From positions 1 through 28,675 of IMG/VR virus record IMGVR_UViG_3300022924_000028: DNA of 28,675 nucleotides. One strand, given 5' to 3'. This document shows positions 1 to 18,318 of the stretch, one piece after another. Below the pieces are notes generated by a model. That model had not been told where the DNA came from. It worked only from the letters and a program-made list of their open reading frames with translations, and did not search any database. Numbering within the stretch: the first letter of the stretch is position 1; every line of letters begins with the position of its first letter. The DNA is from a virus. The translations under genes were made by a program, and so were the position numbers.

Positions 1-27
1 CTGCCGACCTCCGCGGTCGCCTCGTGA
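1..27 (+). CDS. 3' end of an upstream gene (partial)
   Basis: Reading frame 1 runs from the left edge to a TGA at 25-27, giving the C-terminal residues LPTSAVAS. The stop overlaps the GTG of the next gene by four bases (GTGA), the same coupling used by most genes in this window, which is the main reason to believe it. Too little is visible to say what the protein is. Confidence 0.4.
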   Translation: MPTSAVAS

Positions 28-623
28 CCGTCCCCGCCATCTGGCGCGCCGGAGCAATCTGCACCGCCGCCGTCATCCTCACCTCACTCGCGTTCGCCGC
101 ATCCCCCGCCCAGGCCACCGAGACCGCCGAGGTCTACTGGCAGCTCCCCGCCGGCGCCGCTCCGGTGAACGCGCCCGCAGCGCCCGAGGCCGGCATCCGC
201 TACGAGCTCGGCGTCGGCAACGACGGCTGGCCGCAGGCGCTCGGCTCCCGCGATGCGCTCGCCTGCGGCTTCTGGTACCAGGTCGACCGCTACGCGATCG
301 CCGACATCCCCGGACTTATCGCCGACGGAATGCTCATGGCCGGTGAGGACAACGGCAAGGCGATCTCATGGGTCATGGTCTACGCCGGCGACTGCCCGCC
401 CGTCGATGTGCCCGCGCCGCTCCCGCCAGTAGTCGACCAGCCGTCGACCGAGACGCCTTCGGCCACTTCCGAGACCGCCGCTGCGCCCGAACCGACTGAC
501 CGCGAGCTCGCGCACACCGGCTCGAGCAACTCGCCGCTCTGGCTGCTCGCGGCCTTCGGCGGACTCACGACCGCCGGTGCCACGCTTCTCGCCTTCACTC
601 GCCGCCGGGCCACCAACCGATGA
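24..623 (+). CDS. Exported surface protein with LAHTG class E-type sorting signal
   Basis: A 199-residue secreted protein expected to be covalently fixed to the host cell wall. The N-terminus has a charged residue, a hydrophobic stretch (about residues 8-27) and a signal-peptidase site ending AQA at 29-31. The mature core (about 35-125) has two cysteines (81 and 124) and no domain I recognise. A Pro/Thr/Ser/Glu-rich spacer (126-160) leads to LAHTG at 162-166, a hydrophobic segment (171-191) and an RRR tail, the standard layout of a sortase substrate. LAxTG is the motif class E sortases use in high-GC Gram-positives. The GTG start overlaps the previous stop, and the 3' end overlaps the next gene by four bases. 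No sortase is encoded in the window, so a host enzyme would have to process it. A role in lysogenic conversion or in blocking superinfection is inference. Confidence 0.8.
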   Translation: MTVPAIWRAGAICTAAVILTSLAFAASPAQATETAEVYWQLPAGAAPVNAPAAPEAGIRYELGVGNDGWPQALGSRDALACGFWYQVDRYAIADIPGLIADGMLMAGEDNGKAISWVMVYAGDCPPVDVPAPLPPVVDQPSTETPSATSETAAAPEPTDRELAHTGSSNSPLWLLAAFGGLTTAGATLLAFTRRRATNR

Positions 624-883
624 ACTACGTCATCCGCCGACCGGACCTCACCGACTACGTGGTGACCGCTGCATTCGCTGTCGCGACCATCATCGCCGCG
701 GCGAACCTGCCCGCCGTGCTCGCCGCCATGATCCTCGTCAACTCGATCTTCATCCTCGCCGGCCGCATCAACCAGCTACGCGCACGCAGCCGAGCCTTCC
801 GCGCGATCGGCGCCATCGAACACCTACCCATCGGAGTCACCGCCGTGGCCCTCGTCATCCCCACCCGTGAGCCCGCGCTGTGA
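620..883 (+). CDS. Small integral membrane protein
   Basis: An 87-residue protein with two or three hydrophobic segments (about residues 13-44, with a short break, and 68-82) and a basic stretch between them (RINQLRARSRAFR). It starts with the ATG of an ATGA overlap with the surface-protein gene and ends in a GTGA overlap with the next gene, so it is translated from the same message. I do not recognise a family. The overall character (short, hydrophobic, basic loop) is that of phage membrane proteins placed beside lysogeny genes, some of which exclude other phages, but nothing in the sequence proves this. Confidence 0.7.
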   Translation: MNYVIRRPDLTDYVVTAAFAVATIIAAANLPAVLAAMILVNSIFILAGRINQLRARSRAFRAIGAIEHLPIGVTAVALVIPTREPAL

Positions 884-1131: not shown

Positions 1132-1292
1132 GCGCCGATCAGATCTTCGCTGGCGTCGCGGTCGTCATGGTGATCGCGGTCCTGATCCTCGCCGCCCTGG
1201 CGATCCTCGCGGCGATCGACATCCACCGCGTCAAGCGCCCCCGCTACCGCCGCACCTCCCCGCTCGCTCCCGCTGAACCGACAGAACGGTGA
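1128..1292 (+). CDS. 54-residue single-span membrane protein
   Basis: Starts at the GTG overlapping the previous TGA and ends in a GTGA overlap with the antirepressor gene. After a short polar N-terminus (MSADQ) a very hydrophobic stretch of about 25 residues (rich in Val, Ile, Leu and Ala) forms one membrane span. It is followed by a strongly basic cytoplasmic-type tail (HRVKRPRYRR). A longer ORF in the same frame begins upstream at 867, but that part overlaps the 880-1131 gene and has shadow-like Arg/Pro-rich composition, so I place the start at 1128. The function is unknown. Confidence 0.6.
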   Translation: MSADQIFAGVAVVMVIAVLILAALAILAAIDIHRVKRPRYRRTSPLAPAEPTER

Positions 1293-1993
1293 CCACCATG
1301 GTGCGCCCCGCAATCGTCCCCTTCCGCTGGACAGGCCACGGCCTCGACCTGCACGCCTACCTCGACCCCTCCGGGCCCCTGTTCTACGCCGAGGACGTGT
1401 GCCGTGCGCTGCGCATCGACGTCCCGTACACGTACAACCACCGCACCGGGCGCCTCGACTACGAGTGGCCCGCCGGCGTCGCCGTCTTCGAGGACGTCCT
1501 CAAGGACGGCGTGCACGTCCCGCTTTACCGCGTCGAGATCGTCGCCCGTCTCGGCGAACTGAACAGCGAGTTCCTCACCTGGTTCGAGACCGTCGCCGCA
1601 TCCCTCACCGGCGACGACCTCGCCCGCGCGATCGACACCACCACCGGTGTCGAGCTCAGCCCGCACCAGGTCGTCAGCTACACCGCCTCCCGCGCCGCCG
1701 CGATCCTCACCAAAGACCCGAGCCTCACCTTCCGCCGCGACGAGCTCTTCACCGCCATGCACCTGCGCCTCGAGTGGATCCACCGCATGAACAACATCTG
1801 GATCCCGACGAGCAACGCCCTCCGCGCCGGCTACCTCGTCCGCCAGCCCGTCTACATCGCCGGTATCAAGAGCACCTACCCGCAGATCCGCATCACCCAC
1901 GACGGGCTCCACCGCCTGCACGCGCTGCTCGGCGGCACCGCACCCCTCGACACCACCCCCGACAGCCCCCTCACCCTCGTGGAGCCCTCATGA
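1289..1993 (+). CDS. Phage antirepressor-like protein (Bro-N plus KilAC-type domains)
   Basis: A 234-residue protein. Residues 15-100 resemble a Bro-N domain, including the hallmark run in which a phenylalanine/tyrosine precedes a DVCRALRI helix (32-43). Residues 120-215 resemble the KilAC DNA-binding domain, with a helix-turn-helix-like stretch (133-160), a turn giving way to GYLV (181-184), and a final PQIRITHDGLHRLHALL segment (199-213). Proteins of this type (P1 Ant, BRO and KilA-C families) bind DNA or a phage repressor and promote lytic growth. The start is the GTG overlapping the previous gene; an ATG three codons in is an alternative. It is coupled at its 3' end to another tiny membrane protein. 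That the protein relieves repression in this phage is inference from the family. Confidence 0.7.
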   Translation: MTTMVRPAIVPFRWTGHGLDLHAYLDPSGPLFYAEDVCRALRIDVPYTYNHRTGRLDYEWPAGVAVFEDVLKDGVHVPLYRVEIVARLGELNSEFLTWFETVAASLTGDDLARAIDTTTGVELSPHQVVSYTASRAAAILTKDPSLTFRRDELFTAMHLRLEWIHRMNNIWIPTSNALRAGYLVRQPVYIAGIKSTYPQIRITHDGLHRLHALLGGTAPLDTTPDSPLTLVEPS

Positions 1994-2886: not shown

Positions 2887-3663
2887 ATGCCTGTCGCAAC
2901 ACCCGAGGAACACCGCGGCTTCGCGCAGATGCCCGTCTGGCTGCAGCGCAGCACAACGGTCAGCGGCCCCGCCAAGCTCACGTACCTCGCCCTGTCGTCC
3001 CGCGCCGACGAGAACGGGGAGTGCTACCCCTCCCACGAGCTGATCGCAACAGAGGCGTCCTGCAGCGTCGCCACAGTGAAGCGTGTGCTCGAGGATCTCA
3101 AGGCCCTCGGGGTCGTGTCTTGGACGAAACGTCCCCGCAAGGACGGCACCGGCCAGAGCAGCAACCTCTACAAGATCAGCATCAGCAAGGCTGTGGATAA
3201 CTCCTCGAATGCGGTAGCTCACAGTGAGCTACCCGGCCTCGAAACACCCGCTCGGGTAGCTCAGGGTGAGCTGGGGGGTAGCTCACACAGAGCTACGAAG
3301 AAGAACCATTTAACTAAAGACTTAAGCGCGTCATCAGTCCTTCTCGGAACTCACGTAACTGAGGCTGTGGATAACTCCAGCGACGATGACCGAAATTCTT
3401 CTCGCCCCACCCCGGCGAAGATCCGTCACCACAAGGCCGGCATCGACTGGGCCGTCGTCCTGGTCCGTGCCCCCGCCTTCACCTACTTCGCCCCCGACGA
3501 CCTGCACACCATCGGCGCCGAAATCCTCCGCAGGGCGAAGACCACCGTCGTCGACGAGACCGCGTACGTCGGCTATGCCCTCGAGCAGAACCCCTTCGAG
3601 TGGCAGAAGGCAGCGCACGACCTCGACGCCTCCCGCGCCAGCCAGGGAGGGAACCCGTTTTGA
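2887..3663 (+). CDS. Winged-helix replication initiator protein (origin-containing gene)
   Basis: A 258-residue protein of the phage replication-initiator type with an N-terminal helix-turn-helix domain. Residues 27-100 form the winged helix: Lys-Leu-Thr-Tyr helix, the recurring GECYPSHELIA entry, recognition helix SVATVKRVLEDLKALG (60-75), then a wing ending in NLYKI. Residues 100-165 are a polar, low-complexity linker whose DNA carries the candidate origin (3192-3374). Residues 170-245 are a second folded part with no motif I recognise. Initiators with this layout (lambda O, and many Gram-positive phage helix-turn-helix or DnaD-type proteins) bind iterons inside their own gene and recruit the helicase. 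The ATG is four bases after the previous stop. A nuclease gene follows with a small overlap. Confidence 0.75.
   Translation: MPVATPEEHRGFAQMPVWLQRSTTVSGPAKLTYLALSSRADENGECYPSHELIATEASCSVATVKRVLEDLKALGVVSWTKRPRKDGTGQSSNLYKISISKAVDNSSNAVAHSELPGLETPARVAQGELGGSSHRATKKNHLTKDLSASSVLLGTHVTEAVDNSSDDDRNSSRPTPAKIRHHKAGIDWAVVLVRAPAFTYFAPDDLHTIGAEILRRAKTTVVDETAYVGYALEQNPFEWQKAAHDLDASRASQGGNPF
3192..3374 (+). other. Candidate phage replication origin inside the initiator gene
   Basis: Two exact DnaA boxes (TGTGGATAA, the complement of TTATCCACA) lie at 3192-3200 and 3366-3374. Between them are three inverted-repeat elements built on GTAGCTC/GAGCTAC (3213-3233, 3255-3275, 3278-3296). These are followed by the most AT-rich stretch seen here (about 3297-3360, including ATTTAACTAAAGACTTAA), a plausible unwinding element. 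This matches the origin plan in which iterons sit in the linker-coding part of the initiator gene. That it functions as an origin is inference. Confidence 0.7.
3213..3296. repeat. Three inverted-repeat iterons
   Basis: Element 1 (3213-3233) is GGTAGCTCAC, one base, then its exact reverse complement. Element 2 (3255-3275) keeps AGCTCA-GGG-TGAGCT as a core with degenerate flanks. Element 3 (3278-3296) is GTAGCTC, five bases, GAGCTAC. GGTAGCTCACA occurs identically at 3213-3223 and 3277-3287. The centre-to-centre distances are about 42 and 22 bases, i.e. roughly four and two helical turns, so the sites would face the same side of the DNA. They probably bind the initiator encoded by this gene. 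Confidence 0.7.
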
Positions 3664-5340: not shown

Positions 5341-5359
5341 CGAAAGGCACACCATGACC
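5341..5359 (+). promoter_or_regulatory. Ribosome-binding leader shared with 11196-11214
   Basis: CGAAAGGCACACCATGACC occurs identically here and at 11196-11214, each time placing AAAGG eight bases ahead of the ATG of the next gene. The two genes downstream (ParB-like, and terminase-like fragment) are not similar, so the leader was copied or selected on its own. Confidence 0.55.
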
Positions 5360-6733
5360 TCCGCCACCGTGATCCCCGAGATCGGAACCAGCCAGCGCGT
5401 CCCGCTCGCCTCGTTCATCGTCGACACCAACATCCGCAAGGACAACACCCTCGCGAAGGAGTTCGTCGCCTCCGTCAAGCAGCACGGCGTCATCGTCCCC
5501 GTCGACGCCTACTTCAACGCCGAAGACAGCACCTGGCACCTGCAGGACGGCCAGCTCCGCTTCCTCGCATCCATGGACGCCGGCCACACCGACATCCCCG
5601 TCCTCGTCTCCGACCCCGAGATGGCCGACACCGTCCGCATCCAGCGCCAGCTCATCCTCAACGAACGCCGCAACGAGCTCACCGAGGCCGACCGCGTCGG
5701 CGCCTACCAGACCCTCTTCGATATGGGCGTCTCCGCCGACCAGATCGCGCGCAAGACCAACACCCCCGCCAAGCGCGTGCAGACCGCACTCACCGTTTCC
5801 GCCAGCCCCGTCGCGCTGAAGGCACTCACCGCCGCCCCAATCACGCTCGACCAGGCCGCCGCGATCGCCGAGTTCGGCGACACCCCCGAGCAGGCCGAGA
5901 CCCTCACCACCCTCGCGATCGAGCGCCCCGGCAACTTCGTCCACCGCCTCGAGCAGCTGCGCGTCGAGCGCGATTACCTCGCCACCTCCGAAGCGCTCGC
6001 CGCCGAGCTCATCGCTGCCGGCTACACCCAGATCCCGCGCGTCGACACCACCTACCAGGGGCCGGCTCTCGCGATCGACTACCTCTACACCGACGAGAAA
6101 CTCACCGTCCCCCTCGCCGCGGAACGCACCGACCGACTCCCCGCCGACACCACAGGCCTCGCCTTCTTTCTCCAGAACTACGGCGGCGAAGCACGCCCGA
6201 CCTTCGTCATCCAAGACTGGGACGCCAACGGCTACTACACGGAGGCATACCGGAACACCGGGCGCAAGTCGGCCGACGCCGGCGGCGGACTCACCGATGA
6301 AGAGAAAGCCGCCCGCAAGGTCGTCCGCGAGAACAACAAGCTGTGGGCCCCCGCCAGCACCGTCCGCCGCGCCTGGGTGACCGAGTTCCTGCAGCGCAAG
6401 GAACTCCCCGCCGACGCCCTCATCTACGCCGCCCACTACTTCGGCCCCCTGCCCACCTCGATGCCCGGCCAGTCCACCATCCTCACCAGCTGGCTCTCGA
6501 TCGAAAGCCGCAACGCAGGCATCCCCGCCTACCTCAAGAGCAACCCGAAGCAGGCACTCAACGTCCTCCTCGCCGGGGCGCTCGCCGCGGCCGAGGGCGA
6601 GTACGACTTCGCGAAGGACGGATGGCGTCGCGCCGTCGCGAAGCCGTACCTGGCGCAGCTGCAGTCGTGGGGCTACACGCTCTCCGACATCGAGCTCGCC
6701 GTCGTGGCAGGCACCGCGGACAAGGGCGTCTGA
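5354..6733 (+). CDS. ParB/Srx-fold domain protein
   Basis: A 459-residue protein. Residues 15-90 are a ParB-type N-terminal domain: a start-site strand (VPLASFIVDTNIR), the G-VIVPVDAY strand, then a DGQLRFLASMDAG element (65-77) where classical ParB has GERR, and IPVLV. Residues 105-150 contain a helix-turn-helix (MGVSADQIARKTNTPAKRVQ). The long C-terminal half (about 190-459) is not recognised. With no ParA in the window, plasmid-style partitioning is unlikely; related phage proteins act as nucleases, CTP-binding switches or regulators. The ATG is preceded by CGAAAGGCACACC, shared word for word with the gene at 11209. Confidence 0.75.
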   Translation: MTSATVIPEIGTSQRVPLASFIVDTNIRKDNTLAKEFVASVKQHGVIVPVDAYFNAEDSTWHLQDGQLRFLASMDAGHTDIPVLVSDPEMADTVRIQRQLILNERRNELTEADRVGAYQTLFDMGVSADQIARKTNTPAKRVQTALTVSASPVALKALTAAPITLDQAAAIAEFGDTPEQAETLTTLAIERPGNFVHRLEQLRVERDYLATSEALAAELIAAGYTQIPRVDTTYQGPALAIDYLYTDEKLTVPLAAERTDRLPADTTGLAFFLQNYGGEARPTFVIQDWDANGYYTEAYRNTGRKSADAGGGLTDEEKAARKVVRENNKLWAPASTVRRAWVTEFLQRKELPADALIYAAHYFGPLPTSMPGQSTILTSWLSIESRNAGIPAYLKSNPKQALNVLLAGALAAAEGEYDFAKDGWRRAVAKPYLAQLQSWGYTLSDIELAVVAGTADKGV

Positions 6734-6736
6734 CCC

Positions 6737-7126
6737 ATGAACCTCCTCGAGCGCATCACCTGGATCACGGAGAAGATCGCAGGCGCCAGCATCACCATGG
6801 GCGACGAGTACGACCTGCAGGCCGGCATCCAGGCTGCGCTCGAGGGGCACGGCGTCGAGGTCCGCCGCGAGGTGCGCCTCGCCGACGGGATCTCCCGCAT
6901 CGACCTGGTCGTCATCGACCCGCTCATGCTCGCCACCACGGTGGGCATCGAGGTGAAGGTCGACGGATCCGCGGCCGACGTCGTCCGCCAGCTCACCCGG
7001 TACTCGAAGGAGCCCACCCTCGACGGCCTCGTGCTCGTCACCACCCGCTCCAAGCACCACCACATCCCCACCGAGCTGAACGCCAAGCCCGTCCGCCTCG
7101 TCTCGCTCATCGGCGCCGGCCTGTGA
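6737..7126 (+). CDS. Small PD-(D/E)XK nuclease
   Basis: A 129-residue protein with the core of a PD-(D/E)XK nuclease. An N-terminal helix carries an acid (about 24), then come RIDLVVID (54-61), GIEVKV (70-75) and a helix with a conserved Gln and Tyr (QLTRY, 85-89). The following strand, LDGLVLVTT (95-103), is typical of RecB-like or Mrr/Hjc-like enzymes. It is separated by three bases from the ParB-like gene and overlaps the SNF2 helicase gene by four bases. That suggests a nuclease-helicase pair working on the same DNA. The exact substrate cannot be read from the sequence. Confidence 0.75.
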   Translation: MNLLERITWITEKIAGASITMGDEYDLQAGIQAALEGHGVEVRREVRLADGISRIDLVVIDPLMLATTVGIEVKVDGSAADVVRQLTRYSKEPTLDGLVLVTTRSKHHHIPTELNAKPVRLVSLIGAGL

Positions 7127-8934
7127 CCCGCACCTACGGCACCTACCGATACCAGGCACAGAGCAACCCGCCCGAGACCGGCACCGCCGAGGCGCTCGAC
7201 ATCCCCGTCGAGGTCGACCCGAAGAAGCGCGTGCGCAAGGACCCCGGCATCTGGGTCCTCGACCTCGAGCCGGCCGTCCGCATGCGCGCGCGCCGCACCT
7301 TCGGCAAGGTCGCACTCACCCGCACCAGCGAGGTCACCATCATCAACACGGTGGAGGTGTGCCGCGACCTCGAGTGGTTCATGAAGCGCTGGCCGCTGAA
7401 GGCCGCCGACGCCGGATCCCGGGTGATGCTGAAGGCCGGCGCGTCCGAGCACGCCGCCATGGAGAAGACCGTCGGCGCGATCATCACCGGCAAGCACGTC
7501 CGCCTCGACCTGCCGACGAAGCCGCTGAAGGAACCGCGCGACTACCAGCTGTCCGCCGTCGACCTGCTCCGCGCCCGCGGCGCCCTGCTGCTCACCGACG
7601 AGGTCGGCCTCGGCAAGACCTTCACCGGCCTGCTCAACCTCGTGCACGCCGACGCCCTCCCGGCCGTCGTCATCCCGCCCACCCACCTGCCGAAGCGCTG
7701 GCTCACCGAGCTCACTGACGCCTTCCCCTGGCTGACCGTCGAGATCGCGAAGAAGACCACCCCCTCAGCAGCCGTCGCCGCCGGCCAGCTCGCCGACGTC
7801 ACGATCGTTCCCTACTCGAAGATCGACGGTTGGGCTTCCTACCTCGCAGGCGGCATCGCCACCGTCGTCTTCGACGAAGTCCAGGAACTCCGCAACGGCA
7901 CCGCCACAGTGAAGGGCAACGCCGCGGCCCTGCTCACCGAGTCCGCCACCTACGTCCTCGGCCTCACCGCCACCCCCGTCTACAACTACGGCGGCGAGAT
8001 CTGGTCCATCTACGACATCCTCGCCCCCGGCGCCCTCGGCTCCAAGGAAGAGTTCACCCGCGAGTGGGGCGGCGGCACCTCCGGACGCAACGGCCTGATG
8101 ATCAAGGACCCCGGCGCCCTCGGCAGCTACCTCCGTGAGCAGGGTCTCATGCTCGGCCGCACCCGCAAGGAGGTCGGCCGCGAACTCCCGAAGACGATCA
8201 AGGTGCCGATGCTCATCGACTCCGACACCGCCGCCCTCACCGCCGTCGCCGGAAACGCCGCCGCCCTCGCCCGCCTCATCCTCGACGACACCGCCACCCC
8301 GCAGGAGAAGTTCCAGGCATCTGGCGAAATCAACTGGATGCTCCGCCACGCCACCGGCGTCGACAAGGCCCCCTACGTCGCCGAGTTCGTCCGCCTCCTC
8401 CTCGAGAGCGAAGAGAAGATCGTCCTCTTCGGCTGGCACCGCGACGTCTACGACATCTGGATGGAAGCACTCGCCGAGTTCAACCCGATCCTGTACACGG
8501 GCAGCGAGTCGCCGAAGCAGAAGAGCGACGCCGAGGACACCTTCACCCAGCCGTACAACGCCGAGGACCCGAACGCTTGCCGGATCCTCATCATGTCGCT
8601 GCGCTCCGGCGCCGGCGTCGACGGCCTGCAGAAGGTCGCCCGCGTCGCCGTGTTCGGCGAGCTCGACTGGTCGCCGGCCACACACGAGCAGGCCATCGGC
8701 CGCCTCCGCCGCGACGGCATGGGCGAAGACCCGCCCGTCGCCTACTTCCTCAACTCCACCGAGGGCTCCGACCCGATCGTCATGGACGTCCTCCAGGTGA
8801 AGCGCCAGCAGTCCGAACCCCTGATCAGCACCGACGGGAAGCTGCTCGGCAACGCCACCAACGAACCCAACCGCGCACGACGCCTTGCCGAGAACCTCCT
8901 CGGCATCACCCCCACAGAAACGGAAGCCGCCTGA
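7123..8934 (+). CDS. SNF2-type superfamily 2 helicase/ATPase
   Basis: A 603-residue DNA-dependent ATPase. Helicase motifs in order: RDYQLSAVDLL (139-149, Q-like), DEVGLGKT (159-166, Walker A), VIPPTHLPKRW (183-193, motif Ia), FDEVQ (250-254, motif II, a DEAH variant), GLTATP (280-285, motif III), KIVLFGWHR (432-440, motif IV), SLRSGAGVDGLQ (492-503, motif V) and EQAIGRLRRDG (522-532, motif VI). The N-terminal 135 residues are not recognised. Phage SNF2 proteins commonly sit with VRR-NUC or Cas4-like nucleases in replication modules and are thought to remodel or unwind DNA there. GTG start in a GTGA overlap with the nuclease gene. No DnaB-type helicase is in the window, so this may be the phage's main helicase. 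Confidence 0.9.
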   Translation: MTRTYGTYRYQAQSNPPETGTAEALDIPVEVDPKKRVRKDPGIWVLDLEPAVRMRARRTFGKVALTRTSEVTIINTVEVCRDLEWFMKRWPLKAADAGSRVMLKAGASEHAAMEKTVGAIITGKHVRLDLPTKPLKEPRDYQLSAVDLLRARGALLLTDEVGLGKTFTGLLNLVHADALPAVVIPPTHLPKRWLTELTDAFPWLTVEIAKKTTPSAAVAAGQLADVTIVPYSKIDGWASYLAGGIATVVFDEVQELRNGTATVKGNAAALLTESATYVLGLTATPVYNYGGEIWSIYDILAPGALGSKEEFTREWGGGTSGRNGLMIKDPGALGSYLREQGLMLGRTRKEVGRELPKTIKVPMLIDSDTAALTAVAGNAAALARLILDDTATPQEKFQASGEINWMLRHATGVDKAPYVAEFVRLLLESEEKIVLFGWHRDVYDIWMEALAEFNPILYTGSESPKQKSDAEDTFTQPYNAEDPNACRILIMSLRSGAGVDGLQKVARVAVFGELDWSPATHEQAIGRLRRDGMGEDPPVAYFLNSTEGSDPIVMDVLQVKRQQSEPLISTDGKLLGNATNEPNRARRLAENLLGITPTETEAA

Positions 8935-13480: not shown

Positions 13481-14214
13481 CCGACCAGCAAGAGAAGCTC
13501 GCGCTCGCCGCAGCCATCACCGAGCTCCGCCGACAGTCCACCGAGTCCCGCGGTGCTCTGATCTTCGACCTCGCCGACAACCCGGAAGCCCTGCACATCG
13601 ACGGCATCCTCAACCTGCGCCTGCTCACCGAGGCGATCCTCACCGCAGTAGGGATCGACACCGGGGCGCGCACGGCCCTCGGCGTCGACGTGGTCCCTGA
13701 GCGCACCATCACCAGCGTCTCCTACGTTGGTCTCCACGAAACCCGCGTCGTGCCCGCCGGGGATCCATGGCCGACCTCACCGTTCAGGCTCTCGGAGTGG
13801 CCGCCACCCCTCGCCGACGGACCGCGCCGGATCTTCGTCAACGTCGTCAGCGACCGCTTCGGCCCGCCCGCAGACCCCGCGGTCGTCTACGTCGGCCCGG
13901 GCTCGAGGTGGGCCAACCCGGTGACCTTCTCAGACGTCGGCGGCCAGTACCCCAGCCTCAACGACCAGCAGCTCGCCGTCATGGTGCGACGCCAGTTCGA
14001 AGACATCCAGCGGGCCGGCACCGTCACTCTTCCGAACTGGCGCCACCTCGGCGGCCGCCGCGGCCCCATCACCTTCACCTACCCGCCACTCGAGGAGATC
14101 CGCGCCGAGCTCGCCGGCAAGCACCTCTCCTGCAACTGCCCTCCCGACGAGGCCTGCCACGCCGACATCCTCCTCACGCTCGCCAACCCCACCACCCAGG
14201 AGCCCACCCCGTGA
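13477..14214 (+). CDS. DUF4326 domain protein with extra N-terminal region
   Basis: A 245-residue protein. The C-terminal domain (about 112-237) has the DUF4326 signature: VVYVGPGSRWANPVTF (about 135-150), an LxVMVRRQFED helix, and ELAGKHLSCNCPPDEACHADILLTLAN at the end (key residues CNCP...CHAD). The N-terminal 110 residues, mostly helix then a Pro-rich linker, are not seen in the minimal family and I cannot identify them. DUF4326 is common in phages and has no agreed function. It is the third gene in the cassette-linked run with the ASCH gene. Confidence 0.75.
   Translation: MTDQQEKLALAAAITELRRQSTESRGALIFDLADNPEALHIDGILNLRLLTEAILTAVGIDTGARTALGVDVVPERTITSVSYVGLHETRVVPAGDPWPTSPFRLSEWPPPLADGPRRIFVNVVSDRFGPPADPAVVYVGPGSRWANPVTFSDVGGQYPSLNDQQLAVMVRRQFEDIQRAGTVTLPNWRHLGGRRGPITFTYPPLEEIRAELAGKHLSCNCPPDEACHADILLTLANPTTQEPTP
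14196..14213 (+). promoter_or_regulatory. Start cassette copy 3 (before a GTG)
   Basis: CCAGGAGCCCACCCC is again placed directly before a start codon, here the GTG at 14211. The preceding bases differ (ACC instead of A), so only 15 bases are exact. The stop of the DUF4326 gene overlaps the GTG. Confidence 0.65.
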
Positions 14215-14855
14215 AGTACTTCAGACGCATCATCCTCACCGTCCTGGTCACCATCGTCGGCGGGTCCGCATTCGCGCTGTCCTTCGACGCACAGGTGACC
14301 CTCGCCGTAGGGTCCGGCATCAACCCGGCCATCGCCGGCCTCTACCCGGCCGTCGTCGACGTCGCCATCCTCACCGGCGTCCTCATCCGCATCTGGAACC
14401 CCAACCTCAGCAGCGCGGTCAACCGCTACCTGTGGGCCGCAATCGGCTTCTGGTCCATCACCAACATCCTCGGCAACGCCTTCCACGTCACCGCCCTCGA
14501 ACCCGGACGCATCACCGTGCCCATACCCCTCGCGATCGCCGTCAACACCGTCCCCGCCCTCACACTCTTCATCGTCATCCACATAGCCACCATCCCCACC
14601 TCACACCGCCCCGCCCAAACCACGACAGCGCTCGCCGAAGAAGCACCGCGCTCGCAGCAGCCACGAACCGCAGTCGAGCGCACAGCACCGAGGACCGACG
14701 TGCCAGAGCCGACGGGCGCCGAGCTGCTCGAGATGAACAAGACCCTGTCCATGGCGGAGATCGCAATCGAAGTGGGTCGCTCCAAGTCGTGGGTGGGCAC
14801 TCGCGTGAAGGCAGCACGCGAAGCCGCGCTCGAGCAGGGAGAGGCGACAGCATGA
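14211..14855 (+). CDS. DUF2637-type membrane protein with C-terminal HTH
   Basis: A 214-residue protein. Four membrane spans are visible at about 6-27, 42-62, 72-92 and 103-125, matching the DUF2637 family, best known from actinomycete conjugative plasmids (SpdB-like 'spread' proteins) and integrative elements. After a Pro/Ala/Arg linker (128-160) follows a soluble HTH, LEMNKTLSMAEIAIEVGRSKSWV (about 173-195, cut here: key part SMAEIAIEVGRSKSWV), giving a membrane-anchored DNA-binding protein. Phage copies occur, but the fused HTH makes it a candidate for placing DNA at the membrane. GTG start in a copied cassette; overlaps the next gene by four bases. Confidence 0.8.
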   Translation: MKYFRRIILTVLVTIVGGSAFALSFDAQVTLAVGSGINPAIAGLYPAVVDVAILTGVLIRIWNPNLSSAVNRYLWAAIGFWSITNILGNAFHVTALEPGRITVPIPLAIAVNTVPALTLFIVIHIATIPTSHRPAQTTTALAEEAPRSQQPRTAVERTAPRTDVPEPTGAELLEMNKTLSMAEIAIEVGRSKSWVGTRVKAAREAALEQGEATA

Positions 14856-15287: not shown

Positions 15288-15421
15288 CGTTCCCGGCCGC
15301 TCTCTTCGCCGCCCGCAACGATCACTCCTGCCAGCCTCACGACCACACGCGCTCACCTGATCTGGGTCGCGAGCAGGCTGGCATCCTCACCGGCAGCTGT
15401 CGCGTTCACATCACATGGGAG

Positions 15422-15511
15422 ATGAAGGCCGCCCTAAGCACCCGATGCCTCGGGTGTGGCGTGTCCTGCGCGCTGCTGCCGGAGTTCACTTCACCGAGAG
15501 GCGCACCGTGA
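15422..15511 (+). CDS. 29-residue CxxCxxxC micro-ORF (tentative)
   Basis: ATG at 15422 opens a 29-codon frame whose product contains RCLGCGVSC, a zinc-knuckle-like cysteine run. Its TGA overlaps the GTG of the HNH gene (GTGA), the same coupling used elsewhere in this phage, and GGGAG lies a few bases upstream. The size is too small for codon statistics. It could be a real micro-protein or a leader whose translation feeds the HNH gene. Confidence 0.35.
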   Translation: MKAALSTRCLGCGVSCALLPEFTSPRGAP

Positions 15512-15828
15512 CCCGCACGAACACCCGCCGCATGCACACCCTGCGAGACAAGTTCTTCGCCGAGGGCAAGGCGCAATCCGAGTCGCCGGATCCAGAGGTC
15601 AGGGCGCTGTCGTTCTGCTGGCTGGACAACTCGGCGATCGACTACACAGCGGAGCCTCACACCACCAGCGACTCCCACAACCTCGACCACTACTACACCG
15701 TGCACGACCGACCCGACCTCCAAGAGGACTGGGACAACTTCCGCCACTCACACATGACCTGCAACACCAGCCGCGGCAAGAACACCCCCAGCCCGGGCCT
15801 AGGCGAGCCGGTACCCGACTGGTGGTGA
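15508..15828 (+). CDS. HNH endonuclease next to terminase
   Basis: A 106-residue HNH nuclease. The ββα-metal elements are visible: AIDYT (43-47), DSHNLDHYYTV (55-65, catalytic DH), and DNFRHSHMTCNTSRG (76-90, the N and H residues). In most relatives a zinc-binding CxxC precedes AIDYT; here it reads CWLD (37-40), so the second cysteine is missing. HNH proteins encoded beside terminases in cos phages such as HK97 are known parts of the packaging machine and are needed for cos cleavage. I choose the GTG at 15508 because GAGAGG lies seven bases ahead of it and a coupled ORF ends there; an ATG at 15415 would add 31 residues that look random. Confidence 0.85.
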   Translation: MTRTNTRRMHTLRDKFFAEGKAQSESPDPEVRALSFCWLDNSAIDYTAEPHTTSDSHNLDHYYTVHDRPDLQEDWDNFRHSHMTCNTSRGKNTPSPGLGEPVPDWW

Positions 15829-15851: not shown

Positions 15852-16130
15852 ATGGCCGCATTGCTACCAATCACCGGCACCGTCAGCGTCAGCCTCGACG
15901 GCTGCGAGGCGGTGGCTCTCGGTATGTTCAGCGTCCCCGTGACCGCTGTGCATGACGAGGCGACCGGCCTACTTCACGTCGAGGCCGCCACTGACGACGC
16001 GATCAAGACGGCAATGGTCGAAGCCCTGCGGAGCGCGGCGGATCAGATCCTTGCCGCCCTACCGTCTGCCGAGATGGGATCGGCCGACGGCGGCCACGCG
16101 CCATCGGACACCGAGATCGTTCGCGACTGA
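15852..16130 (+). CDS. 92-residue protein of unknown function
   Basis: ATG with AGGAG eight bases upstream. The N-terminal half is beta-rich (PITGTVSVSLDG, VALGMFSVPVTAV, GLLHVEAATD), followed by a helix (IKTAMVEALRSAADQILAAL) and an acidic tail. It lies between the HNH gene and the small terminase, a place where head or packaging accessory genes are found. I do not recognise the family. Confidence 0.6.
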   Translation: MAALLPITGTVSVSLDGCEAVALGMFSVPVTAVHDEATGLLHVEAATDDAIKTAMVEALRSAADQILAALPSAEMGSADGGHAPSDTEIVRD

Positions 16131-16137
16131 AGCTCTC

Positions 16138-16160
16138 AGCGCCTCCCACAGGCGCTATTT
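16138..16160 (+). terminator. Short hairpin with T-rich tail
   Basis: AGCGCCT (16138-16144) and AGGCGCT (16150-16156) form a perfect 7-bp stem around CCCAC, followed by ATTTCTG. It begins eight bases after the preceding stop codon and probably lowers read-through into the terminase genes unless the late operon is antiterminated. Confidence 0.55.
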
Positions 16161-16287
16161 CTGCCTCTTTGCGCGATTTCCCCAGAAAATCCAGACATGG
16201 CCTAGGGGACGGACCAGAGCCAGGGGGAGCTGTCCTCCCTCCCCGGGGTCGGAGTCCATTTTTTTACCCACTCCGAGAGGGGGGACG
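16161..16287. other. Candidate cos region before the small terminase gene
   Basis: A 127-base non-coding stretch with marked G and C runs (CAGGGGGAGC, CCTCCCTCCCCGGGG) and a T7 run. TCGGAGT (16249-16255) and ACTCCGA (16270-16276) form an inverted repeat with the T-run in the loop, right before the Shine-Dalgarno of the small terminase gene. In cos phages with an HNH gene beside the terminase, cos usually lies close to terS, so this is the best cos candidate in the window. No cleavage site can be read directly. Confidence 0.4.
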
Positions 16288-16617
16288 ATGAGAAAAAAGA
16301 TGGGGCCGCACCGCAAAGCGGTCATGCGGATGCTGCGCGCGACCGGCCTCGTGCACGTCCCCGAAGAGGCGCCGCTCATCGAGCTCGTCAAAGAGCTCGC
16401 GGACGAACTCGACACCGAGGGCGGCGCGCGAAACCGGCAGGCCTACCTCTCCGCGCTGAAGGATCTGCGCCGCGTGATCAACGCGAGCACCGGCGTACCG
16501 CGAGGTTCGGCCGAGGTTATCCCGCCGGCCGACGCCGACGAAGAGCCGACGCATGACACCGAGGTCCCTCGCCAGAACGACCTGGCGAATTTCAAGCAGA
16601 AACACAAGATCGCCTAA
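16288..16617 (+). CDS. Terminase small subunit-like protein
   Basis: A 109-residue protein that begins with a basic stretch MRKKMGPHRKAVMRML. It continues with two predicted helices (LIELVKELADELD; RQAYLSALKDLRRVINAS) and an acidic, disordered tail ending in basic residues (NFKQKHKIA). Size, position directly before the large subunit and the 'GPxRxA ... LADELD ... YLxALKDLR' pattern match small terminases of actinophages, which recognise cos or pac and regulate cleavage. The ATG has a very G-rich Shine-Dalgarno (AGAGGGGGG) ahead of it. Confidence 0.75.
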   Translation: MRKKMGPHRKAVMRMLRATGLVHVPEEAPLIELVKELADELDTEGGARNRQAYLSALKDLRRVINASTGVPRGSAEVIPPADADEEPTHDTEVPRQNDLANFKQKHKIA

Positions 16618-16638
16618 GCCTGGGAGGGGGTCGATTCG

Positions 16639-18318
16639 TTGACGACCCTCGCCCCACCGGCTCCCCAACGGAGCTCCACTGCGACGGCGAACCTGAAAGG
16701 CCGCACCGAACCGCGGCTGTGGACCCGCCCGCTGCGCAAACTCACCCCGGAAACCTCCCTCGGATACGAGGTCATCGAGTTCGCCAGGGTCATTCTCGGC
16801 GTCGAGCTCTACCCGTGGCAGTGCTGGCTGCTGATTCACGCACTCGAGCTACTCGTCGACGGGCAGTATCGGTTCCGCCGCGTCATCGTTCTCGTCGCCC
16901 GCCAGCAGGGAAAGACCACTCTCGCCTCCGTGCTCGCCGCCTGGTGGCTGTACATCGACTCGGCCCGCCACCCCGACCGGGTGCCGCCGCTGAAATTCAA
17001 GGTTGTCGGCGTCGCCCAGAACCTCGACATCGCCCGCGAACCCTGGGCGGTCGTGAAGCTCTGGTGCGATCCGAAGCCGGAGACCGTCGAAGAGTCCGTG
17101 CTCGCCATCCAAGCGCTGCAGGATGCGACGGCGAAGGTGTCTGACACCAACGGCAAGGAGGCTATCGTCGCGCGATCGCGCGCGCACTACGAGATCCGCG
17201 CCGGCAAGAACGCCCGCGGCAAGCCCGCCGCCCGCGTGCTGATGGATGAGATGCGCGAGCAGAAGGACTGGGCCGTCTGGAACGCGGTCTCGCAGACCAC
17301 GAAATCCTTCTGGAACGGCATGCTTGTCGGCTTCTCCAACGCCGGCGACAGCGGCGCGGTCGTCCTGCGCCAGCAGCGCGACGCGGCGATCGCCGACCAG
17401 GCCGACTTCGACGCCTACGTCAACGCCGGACTCACCTCGGCCGAGGAGTTCGCCAACACCCACGACATGTCCCTCGGCCTGTTCGAGTGGTCGGCGCCCG
17501 ACGGCTGCGCGAAGGACGACGTCGACGGGATCCTCCAGGCCAACCCGTCCATCGGCTACGGCTCGATGACAGTGCAGAGCGCCCTCGCGGACATCCGCGG
17601 AATGACCGACGCCGGCTACCGCACCGAGGTGCTCTGCCAGTGGGTCACCGCCCAGGTGGACTCCTTCATCGACGTGAAGGACTACCGCGTCCTGGTCGCG
17701 ACGGTCGCCGAGGTCAGGGGCCGGATCCCGAAGGGCGCCCGCACAGTATGGGGCGTGGACGTCTCGGACGACCGGCAGACCACGTGGGTGTCGTCGGCGG
17801 TGTACACCGACGACGGCAAACCCTTCCTGTACAGCCGGATCAAGCGCGCCGGCATGGTATGGGTGCCCGCGTATCTCGCCGCCCTCGCTGAGGAATCGGG
17901 CCACCGCGAGGTGGCGCTGAACGCCAAGGGATGCCCGGCGATGGAGTTCGTCGAGCCGCTCGAGGAGCTCGGCCTCACCGTGCACAAGTTCGACGGGCCC
18001 ATGTTCGCGATCGCCACCGGCCGCCACCAGGACGCGGTGCGCGACAAGACCATCGTCGTCACCCACCAGCCCGATATCGACCTCGCCGTGCAGGGCGGAG
18101 TCGTGGTCCGGTACGGCGACAACAAGGCGTGGTCCCGGCCGAAGTCGATGCCGGTGGACATCGCCGGCCTGGTCGGGATGTCGCTCGCACTGTATGCGCT
18201 GGAGATCCTCACGCCGCCTCCGCCCGAGCCTGCCGCTCCTCCGCCGCCGGCCGCCGAGATGGTCACCCGCGATGACTCATCGCCCTCCGATGTGAACCTC
18301 GCAACCGCGGGGTTCTAA
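16639..18318 (+). CDS. Terminase large subunit
   Basis: A 559-residue packaging motor and nuclease. N-terminal ATPase: an adenine-binding LYPWQCWLL (57-65), Walker A ARQQGKTT (87-94) and Walker B ARVLMDE (198-204), with coupling region TTKSFWNGMLVGFSNAG (220-236). C-terminal RNase H-like nuclease: first acid in VWGVDVSDD (Asp 374), last acid in SMPVDIAGL (Asp 507). The spot where many relatives have a second metal-binding Asp reads LNAKGCPA (427-434). A TTG at 16639 is the start: GGGAGGGGG lies nine bases ahead, and no closer ATG or GTG fits. A Pro-rich tail ends the protein. Confidence 0.95.
   Translation: MTTLAPPAPQRSSTATANLKGRTEPRLWTRPLRKLTPETSLGYEVIEFARVILGVELYPWQCWLLIHALELLVDGQYRFRRVIVLVARQQGKTTLASVLAAWWLYIDSARHPDRVPPLKFKVVGVAQNLDIAREPWAVVKLWCDPKPETVEESVLAIQALQDATAKVSDTNGKEAIVARSRAHYEIRAGKNARGKPAARVLMDEMREQKDWAVWNAVSQTTKSFWNGMLVGFSNAGDSGAVVLRQQRDAAIADQADFDAYVNAGLTSAEEFANTHDMSLGLFEWSAPDGCAKDDVDGILQANPSIGYGSMTVQSALADIRGMTDAGYRTEVLCQWVTAQVDSFIDVKDYRVLVATVAEVRGRIPKGARTVWGVDVSDDRQTTWVSSAVYTDDGKPFLYSRIKRAGMVWVPAYLAALAEESGHREVALNAKGCPAMEFVEPLEELGLTVHKFDGPMFAIATGRHQDAVRDKTIVVTHQPDIDLAVQGGVVVRYGDNKAWSRPKSMPVDIAGLVGMSLALYALEILTPPPPEPAAPPPPAAEMVTRDDSSPSDVNLATAGF

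Follow-up and report, generated by a model that had tools for sequence, protein, structure and literature searches.

A gene at the left end of the window, by which we mean the whole analysed stretch of 28,675 nucleotides of viral DNA (IMG/VR record IMGVR_UViG_3300022924_000028), encodes a predicted class E sortase substrate of a type that recurs in phages. We consider this conclusion well supported, because an LAxTG motif is present in every phage copy examined and class E sortases are present in the proxy hosts. As judged from its sequence, the protein is very probably displayed with the help of a sortase, being exported, joined to the cell wall and presenting one domain on a stalk. As to its role, we tentatively propose superinfection exclusion by blocked adsorption, which we regard as the most likely of the options weighed below.

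The LAHTG protein

The first-pass annotation of this DNA had described a complete sortase substrate, consisting of a signal peptide, a cysteine-containing core, a Pro/Thr/Ser spacer, LAHTG, a hydrophobic stretch and RRR, and each of these elements is found in the translation (Table 1). By eye, the N-terminus reads as a Sec-type signal peptide in which a hydrophobic run leads to a cut between ASPAQA and TE. At the C-terminus LAHTG is followed by the hydrophobic residues and by RRR near the end, and the cysteines of the core are Cys81 and Cys124. The GTG start is presumed, since the frame contains no stop up to the left window edge, and a longer N-terminus is possible.

Table 1. Features of the window, with the basis of each assignment.
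Feature	Position	Strand	Basis
Putative LAHTG surface protein of the phage, built like a class E sortase substrate, 199 aa	24..623	+	GTG start; translation, anchor profiles, homologues of like architecture
Signal peptide (about residues 1-31), with cleavage predicted between AQA and TE	24..116	+	By-eye reading of translation
Two-cysteine core domain, residues 36-124	129..395	+	A3 alignment of five phage cores; profile; AlphaFold
Pro/Thr/Ser/Glu-rich spacer, about residues 125-161	396..506	+	Translation
LAHTG sorting motif, residues 162-166	507..521	+	Translation, motif scan, anchor profiles
Hydrophobic stretch (171-190) and basic tail RRRATNR	534..620	+	Translation, anchor profiles
Small protein with hydrophobic segments, ATGA-coupled, no family	620..883	+	Family searches
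KilAC/ANT-domain protein, antirepressor-like	1289..1993	+	Pfam PF03374, 25.3 bits (equal to cut-off, 25.3)
Replication initiation protein	2887..3663	+	phrog_270, E 6.9e-18
ParB-like protein	5354..6733	+	phrog_6218, E 1.3e-49
Helicase, phrog_62	7123..8934	+	Same PHROG as helicase downstream of LAxTG gene in L091 and L167
Terminase large subunit, bait for relatives and hosts	16639..18318	+	phrog_9, E 1e-62

Anchor profiles score the window protein at or below their thresholds: TIGR01167 (LPXTG_anchor) gives 15.9 bits, exactly at its cut-off of 15.9, NF058582 (Microco_LAVTG) gives 20.3 bits (E 0.00044), below its cut-off of 27, and Pfam Gram_pos_anchor (PF00746) gives 16.3 bits, below its cut-off of 20. 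When the protein was shuffled at constant composition, a full L[PA]xTG anchor arose in 78 of 200,000 shuffles. A looser anchor scan over 55 records (the window and the first 54 loci) gave seven matches among 8,670 stop-to-stop frames, and the window protein was the sole one with LAxTG. The like architecture of the homologues is stronger evidence for the predicted anchor than these shuffle and scan statistics.

Several other readings of the protein were rejected. A chance motif does not agree with the conservation of the motif in all homologues, a lipoprotein would need a lipobox that by eye is lacking at Cys13, and a virion protein is at odds with the signal peptide, the anchor and the position of the gene outside the structural block. 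Nothing seen at the locus pointed to a retrotransposon-like element, a toxin-antitoxin system or a restriction system.

Gene neighbourhood

The GTG at 24 overlaps the TGA at 25-27 of another frame (GTGA), and an identical 4-base coupling recurs at 620, 880, 1128, 1289 and 1990. Because the LAHTG gene overlaps its neighbours in the same manner as the next genes overlap each other, we assign it to the early run of the phage. On the plus strand it is followed by small hydrophobic proteins, the ANT-domain gene, replication initiation, the ParB-like gene and the phrog_62 helicase, and then by the structural genes (terminase, portal, head protease, major head protein and major tail protein). The earlier claim that a phage-borne gene is encoded in one coupled run with an antirepressor is thus upheld by the 4-base overlaps, by the ANT domain, whose score lies at the cut-off, and by the phage genes downstream.

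Three small proteins with hydrophobic segments and without a family match (620-883, 1128-1292 and 1990-2166) lie in the coupled run of the LAHTG and ANT genes; from their sequences they could be further membrane-acting early proteins. An excisionase-type protein (phrog_733, 14211-14855) and an HNH endonuclease (phrog_338, 15415-15828) are encoded between the early and the packaging genes. GC skew is about -0.2 over the early half of the window and about -0.05 over the structural half, with the shift at about 16000-17000, where early and packaging genes meet.

Relatives in viral contigs

Direct similarity searches with the window sequence gave little. By tblastn the window protein had no match in phages at E <= 0.01, its core alone had none at E <= 10, and the protein had none in plasmids. 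Exact 8-residue patterns of the protein were absent from the viral contigs and genome contigs searched, and the ANT/antirepressor protein found no match in viral contigs when used as bait. Among the terminase relatives, 0 of 24 records contained the LAHTG gene by single-sequence search (many of these records are fragments) and 0 of 24 by profile. A single-sequence family search of 398 genomes yielded 62 genomes at E <= 0.1, and 20 loci were compared among the matches listed, of which all but one were dropped as apparent chance. The one kept (L073) is a weak match to a chromosomal protein of 500 aa from the same family as Cryobacterium sp. Y11, which has the CGFTYQMDRYRI motif, of the form CGFxYQxDRYxI, together with an LAVTG anchor. 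A pattern search over the 398 genomes found no match.

A DNA pattern for CGxWxQxDxY retrieved five loci from the viral contigs, of which three are true relatives (L086/L091, L087/L092 and L089/L090) and two (L085 and L088) are chance matches in another frame. The proteins of L091, L092 and L090 have a signal peptide, the core, a Pro/Thr spacer and anchors with LAKTG, LAVTG and LAETG, respectively. The best pair is the window core and the 376-aa LAETG protein (45% over 91 aa, 79.3 bits). With the pattern relaxed (30 stretches), L112 (LAYTG) and, weakly, L100 (LASTG) were added, and a third pattern (24 stretches) gave no further relative. Together, all six viral contigs with the core, the window included, have an LAxTG anchor and none has LPxTG.

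The prophage of L090 (39,759 bases) is intact and 100% identical within a bacterial contig of 104,459 bases, and its LAETG gene, the first to follow a repressor/HTH pair, lies 4 kb away from the integrase. In the window, L091 and L167 a phrog_62 helicase is encoded downstream of the LAxTG gene. The surroundings of the gene are those of an early or replication region in the window and in L090, L091, L092 and L112, as well as in the isolated phage Kithara.

Some peculiarities of these loci deserve mention. In L092 (7082-8362, G798) no stop separates the LAVTG protein from an HNH-endonuclease-like stretch that precedes it in the same frame (HNH_3, 20.7 bits, below cut-off); the resulting frame of 426 residues either is a fusion or contains an internal start. 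The protein of L091 (7440-8594) has, besides the core, a CHNG...HGD stretch that by eye resembles ICHAT...GHGDH of the chromosomal protein L122. The 61.6-kb viral record with the LAKTG gene contains a second weak profile match (G797:C1:8804-8905, E 0.0061) in a frame of 94 aa.

Core domain

Alignment of five phage cores (A3) gave the pattern [VE]xW...WPQ...CGxWxQxDxY...LxxDxxLxxGEDxGxAxxW...C, with W, WPQ, CG, QxD, Y, GED, W and the second C as invariant columns. The profile built from it scores the window core at 128.9 bits, the window being one of the profile's own rows. An AlphaFold2 model from the five core sequences had a mean pLDDT of 89.1 and a pTM of 0.81. Foldseek returned 0 matches to this model at E <= 0.001 in PDB or BFVD, which is not to say that the fold is new; late BFVD matches had E > 1 and were set aside as noise, and the best Z in VIA-align was 2.0. 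No Pfam family matched the core above its gathering score, either in the window protein or in six homologues. The search of the core by HMM and structure that had been suggested earlier succeeded on the side of the profile, which found phage and chromosomal homologues, and gave neither a Pfam family nor a PDB match (Foldseek E <= 0.001). What it has singled out is a domain without a Pfam family.

The A3 profile matched 7 of 396 genomes of the order, one being the L090 prophage itself and the others encoding large secreted proteins. Among these chromosomal proteins, L124 has LASTG and L120 has, by eye, several copies of the motif. Since the profile matches both chromosomal surface proteins and phages, the domain appears to be a surface module common to phages and hosts. 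One genome (G494:C41:13949-18080; L121, L125 and L156) contains two chromosomal domain genes about 4 kb apart, which suggests a surface-protein cluster.

LAxTG proteins of isolated phages

A tblastn search with the L100 core at E <= 10 gave nine records, including the Curtobacterium phages Sunfish and Kithara and the Microbacterium phage Big4; the other six (Prevotella, Pseudomonas and Microcystis phages, E 2-10) look like noise. Kithara gp65 as query led to Shrew and Yappy, with all four records being Curtobacterium phages, and Big4 gp260 led to 39 records. Relatives of Krampus gp58 were found at E <= 0.001 in 133 of 50,697 phage records, and Microbacterium phages account for 132 of the 133. 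Because 30 of the 133 are at least 95% identical, this type of gene appears to be kept within its lineage.

We read the C-termini in 18 isolated phages (Sunfish, Kithara, Big4, Krampus, Yappy, Shrew, Magritte, Pumpernickel, Kurnik, FuzzBuster, SM23, Leaf, A3Wally, Zooman, Terij, Ariadne, ClearAsMud and Hager). LAxTG was present in 18/18 and the whole anchor in 17/18, and a signal peptide was seen by eye in 16, with none in Pumpernickel and SM23 as annotated. An anchor scan that also allowed LPxTG, run on 1,895 frames around the genes of isolated phages (21 loci, two of them from one Krampus record), flagged only these LAxTG genes. SM23 (L202 1460-3397) keeps LATTG and has, unlike the 17 others, a non-hydrophobic tail in the annotated frame, which may be due to a frameshift or sequence error.

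The relation of these proteins to the window core is graded. The A3 profile scores Sunfish, Kithara, Yappy and Shrew weakly (11.0-19.5 bits) and Zooman, A3Wally and Magritte more weakly still. Big4 scores 1.2 bits, and its sole connection runs through L100 (39.7% over 66 residues, E 1e-5). For Krampus gp58 (543 aa) the score is -0.4 bits, and the Krampus group has no core relation. As many of the isolated-phage proteins, those of the Krampus type, match in architecture and not in core, a purpose common to the window and Krampus types is something that we can only infer.

The LAxTG gene of Kithara is located between replication genes, and that of Krampus adjoins DNA polymerase genes. When all annotated features were read, no annotated integrase was found in Krampus (83 features) or Kithara (99 features). 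Because isolated phages without an annotated integrase carry LAxTG genes, a role in lysogens only is too narrow, and so is the lysogen part of the first-pass annotation. The databases label the LAxTG phage proteins as 'membrane' or 'hypothetical' protein. The name 'DnaE-like DNA polymerase III alpha', given to a Krampus gp58 relative in Microbacterium phage Potty (ON526977.1, 43600-45228), does not fit the sequence and is probably an annotation slip.

Hosts and their sortases

The window belongs to an actinophage, and its terminase is about 74% identical to prophage terminases of Glaciibacter superstes and two Cryobacterium strains, all of them Microbacteriaceae; a fourth locus in the genome search was a weak partial match in Mycolicibacterium. 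The window is a virus record with no accompanying host genome; these three hosts of terminase relatives served as proxy hosts. Each of them has exactly one sortase, and in 3/3 it is of class E (235.5, 237.6 and 242.2 bits; cut-off 160). In the bacterial family as a whole the class E model matches 275 of 299 genomes, 266 of them above the cut-off. The class E sortase that was to be sought in a host is present in the proxy hosts and in most genomes of the family. In the genome with the L090 prophage there are three sortases: a class E enzyme at 254.7 bits (cut-off 160) and two that stay below every class cut-off. Class E sortases take LAXTG rather than LPXTG according to PMC5148588, in agreement with the original reading of LAHTG as a class E type signal.

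Proposed role and alternative explanations

We propose the following course of events. The protein would be made from the early replication and regulation run, in which its gene is coupled to the antirepressor-like gene and from which we deduce early timing. Export from the cell would proceed through the signal peptide that can be read in its sequence. The housekeeping class E sortase of the host would then cut LAHTG between T and G and join the protein to peptidoglycan; motif and, in the proxy hosts, enzyme are present, and the reaction is extrapolated from PMC5148588. The Pro/Thr stalk would present a compact, presumably disulphide-type domain, which surface proteins of hosts contain as well. 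Once displayed, this domain may cover or alter the adsorption site, and the infected cell and its debris would take up no further phage, which is superinfection exclusion. Blocking further adsorption is the simplest of the options considered. Both the early or replication-region position of the gene and the lack of an annotated integrase in Krampus and Kithara favour a role during infection. A wall protein of phages that may not form lysogens is best accounted for as being of use to the phage while it infects.

The main alternative is lysogenic conversion, in which the protein on lysogens would serve the bacterium in adhesion, aggregation, biofilm formation or predator evasion, like SasX. The presence of the domain in large chromosomal surface proteins, with several copies of the motif by eye in L120, the place of the L090 gene next to a repressor and near an integrase, and the effect of the prophage-borne, wall-anchored SasX on colonisation (PMC10232760) would all agree with it; we nevertheless consider it rather unlikely, as the gene lies on the early strand amid replication genes and not beside lysis or attachment-site cargo, and as Krampus and Kithara have no annotated integrase. 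It is less probable again that phages have repeatedly captured a host surface-protein module which is displayed and of little use to them. Such a passenger would explain the patchy distribution among the window's terminase relatives and the occurrence of the domain in host proteins, but not why motif and anchor are conserved across strongly diverged phages, nor the number of Krampus gp58 relatives (133/50,697) and the near identity of 30 of them.

The 'membrane protein' label of the counterparts implies another possibility, namely an ordinary membrane protein in which LAHTG occurs by chance and is not processed by a sortase. The sub-threshold anchor profiles point that way for the window protein alone; with LAxTG in 6/6 viral contigs and 18/18 isolated phages, and no LPxTG from a scan open to both, we regard this as very improbable. 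It is hardly credible, finally, that the gene is a bacterial one for a surface protein, caught at the margin of a wrongly delimited prophage or of a chimeric contig. The gene does lie at the very end of the contig, starting at base 24, but it has 4-base coupling to the next phage genes, and copies are found inside phage sequence in L090-L092, L112, Sunfish and Kithara.

Returning to superinfection exclusion by a displayed protein, a still more tentative generalisation is that Microbacteriaceae phages, some of them without signs of lysogeny, widely coat the infected cell by way of the host class E sortase. This coat might form a general, as yet unnamed superinfection-exclusion layer, of which the window protein would be a minimal form, presenting a single domain taken over from surface proteins of the host. 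A ready system for asking whether phages remodel the wall of an occupied cell is Microbacterium foliorum NRRL B-24224, for which numerous phages have been isolated.

Comparison with known systems

The core of the window protein is presumably unlike the chaplins. The class E substrates of Streptomyces coelicolor, chaplins ChpA-C with LAXTG, resemble the present proteins in signal peptide, LAxTG, hydrophobic stretch and basic tail (PMC5148588); unlike them, the present proteins are encoded by phages. Krampus gp58 and its relatives, annotated as 'membrane protein' in Microbacterium phages, are like the window protein in signal peptide and LAxTG anchor and have, by the A3 profile, an unrelated core.

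Surface superinfection exclusion proteins are similar in the proposed block of receptor access, which for the window protein is our suggested role. In PMC9863714, prophage proteins that block receptor-binding proteins are described and the LPXTG-anchored GamR is named as a phage receptor. The literature searched contained no sortase-anchored superinfection excluder, and among open-licence PMC papers, which do not prove absence, we found none that joins phages with LAXTG or class E sortase substrates.

SasX is an LPXTG/class A system of Firmicutes, and the LPXTG signal of the SasX type is absent from the window protein, which has LAHTG. Compared by description, SasX of Staphylococcus aureus, from a PhiSPbeta-like prophage, is alike in being a phage-borne gene with a product anchored by the host sortase (PMC10232760). 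It comes from a temperate phage only, whereas the present genes also occur in phages for which no integrase is annotated, and their places are early or replication regions. Phage-encoded proteins anchored by a host sortase have, to our knowledge, been single virulence-linked cases in Firmicutes such as SasX. The present genes would add a class E (LAxTG) version of this trick in high-GC Gram-positives, carried by unrelated phages and, for relatives of one gene, by more than 100 deposited records, with the window protein as one of many putative phage class E substrates that annotation has missed.
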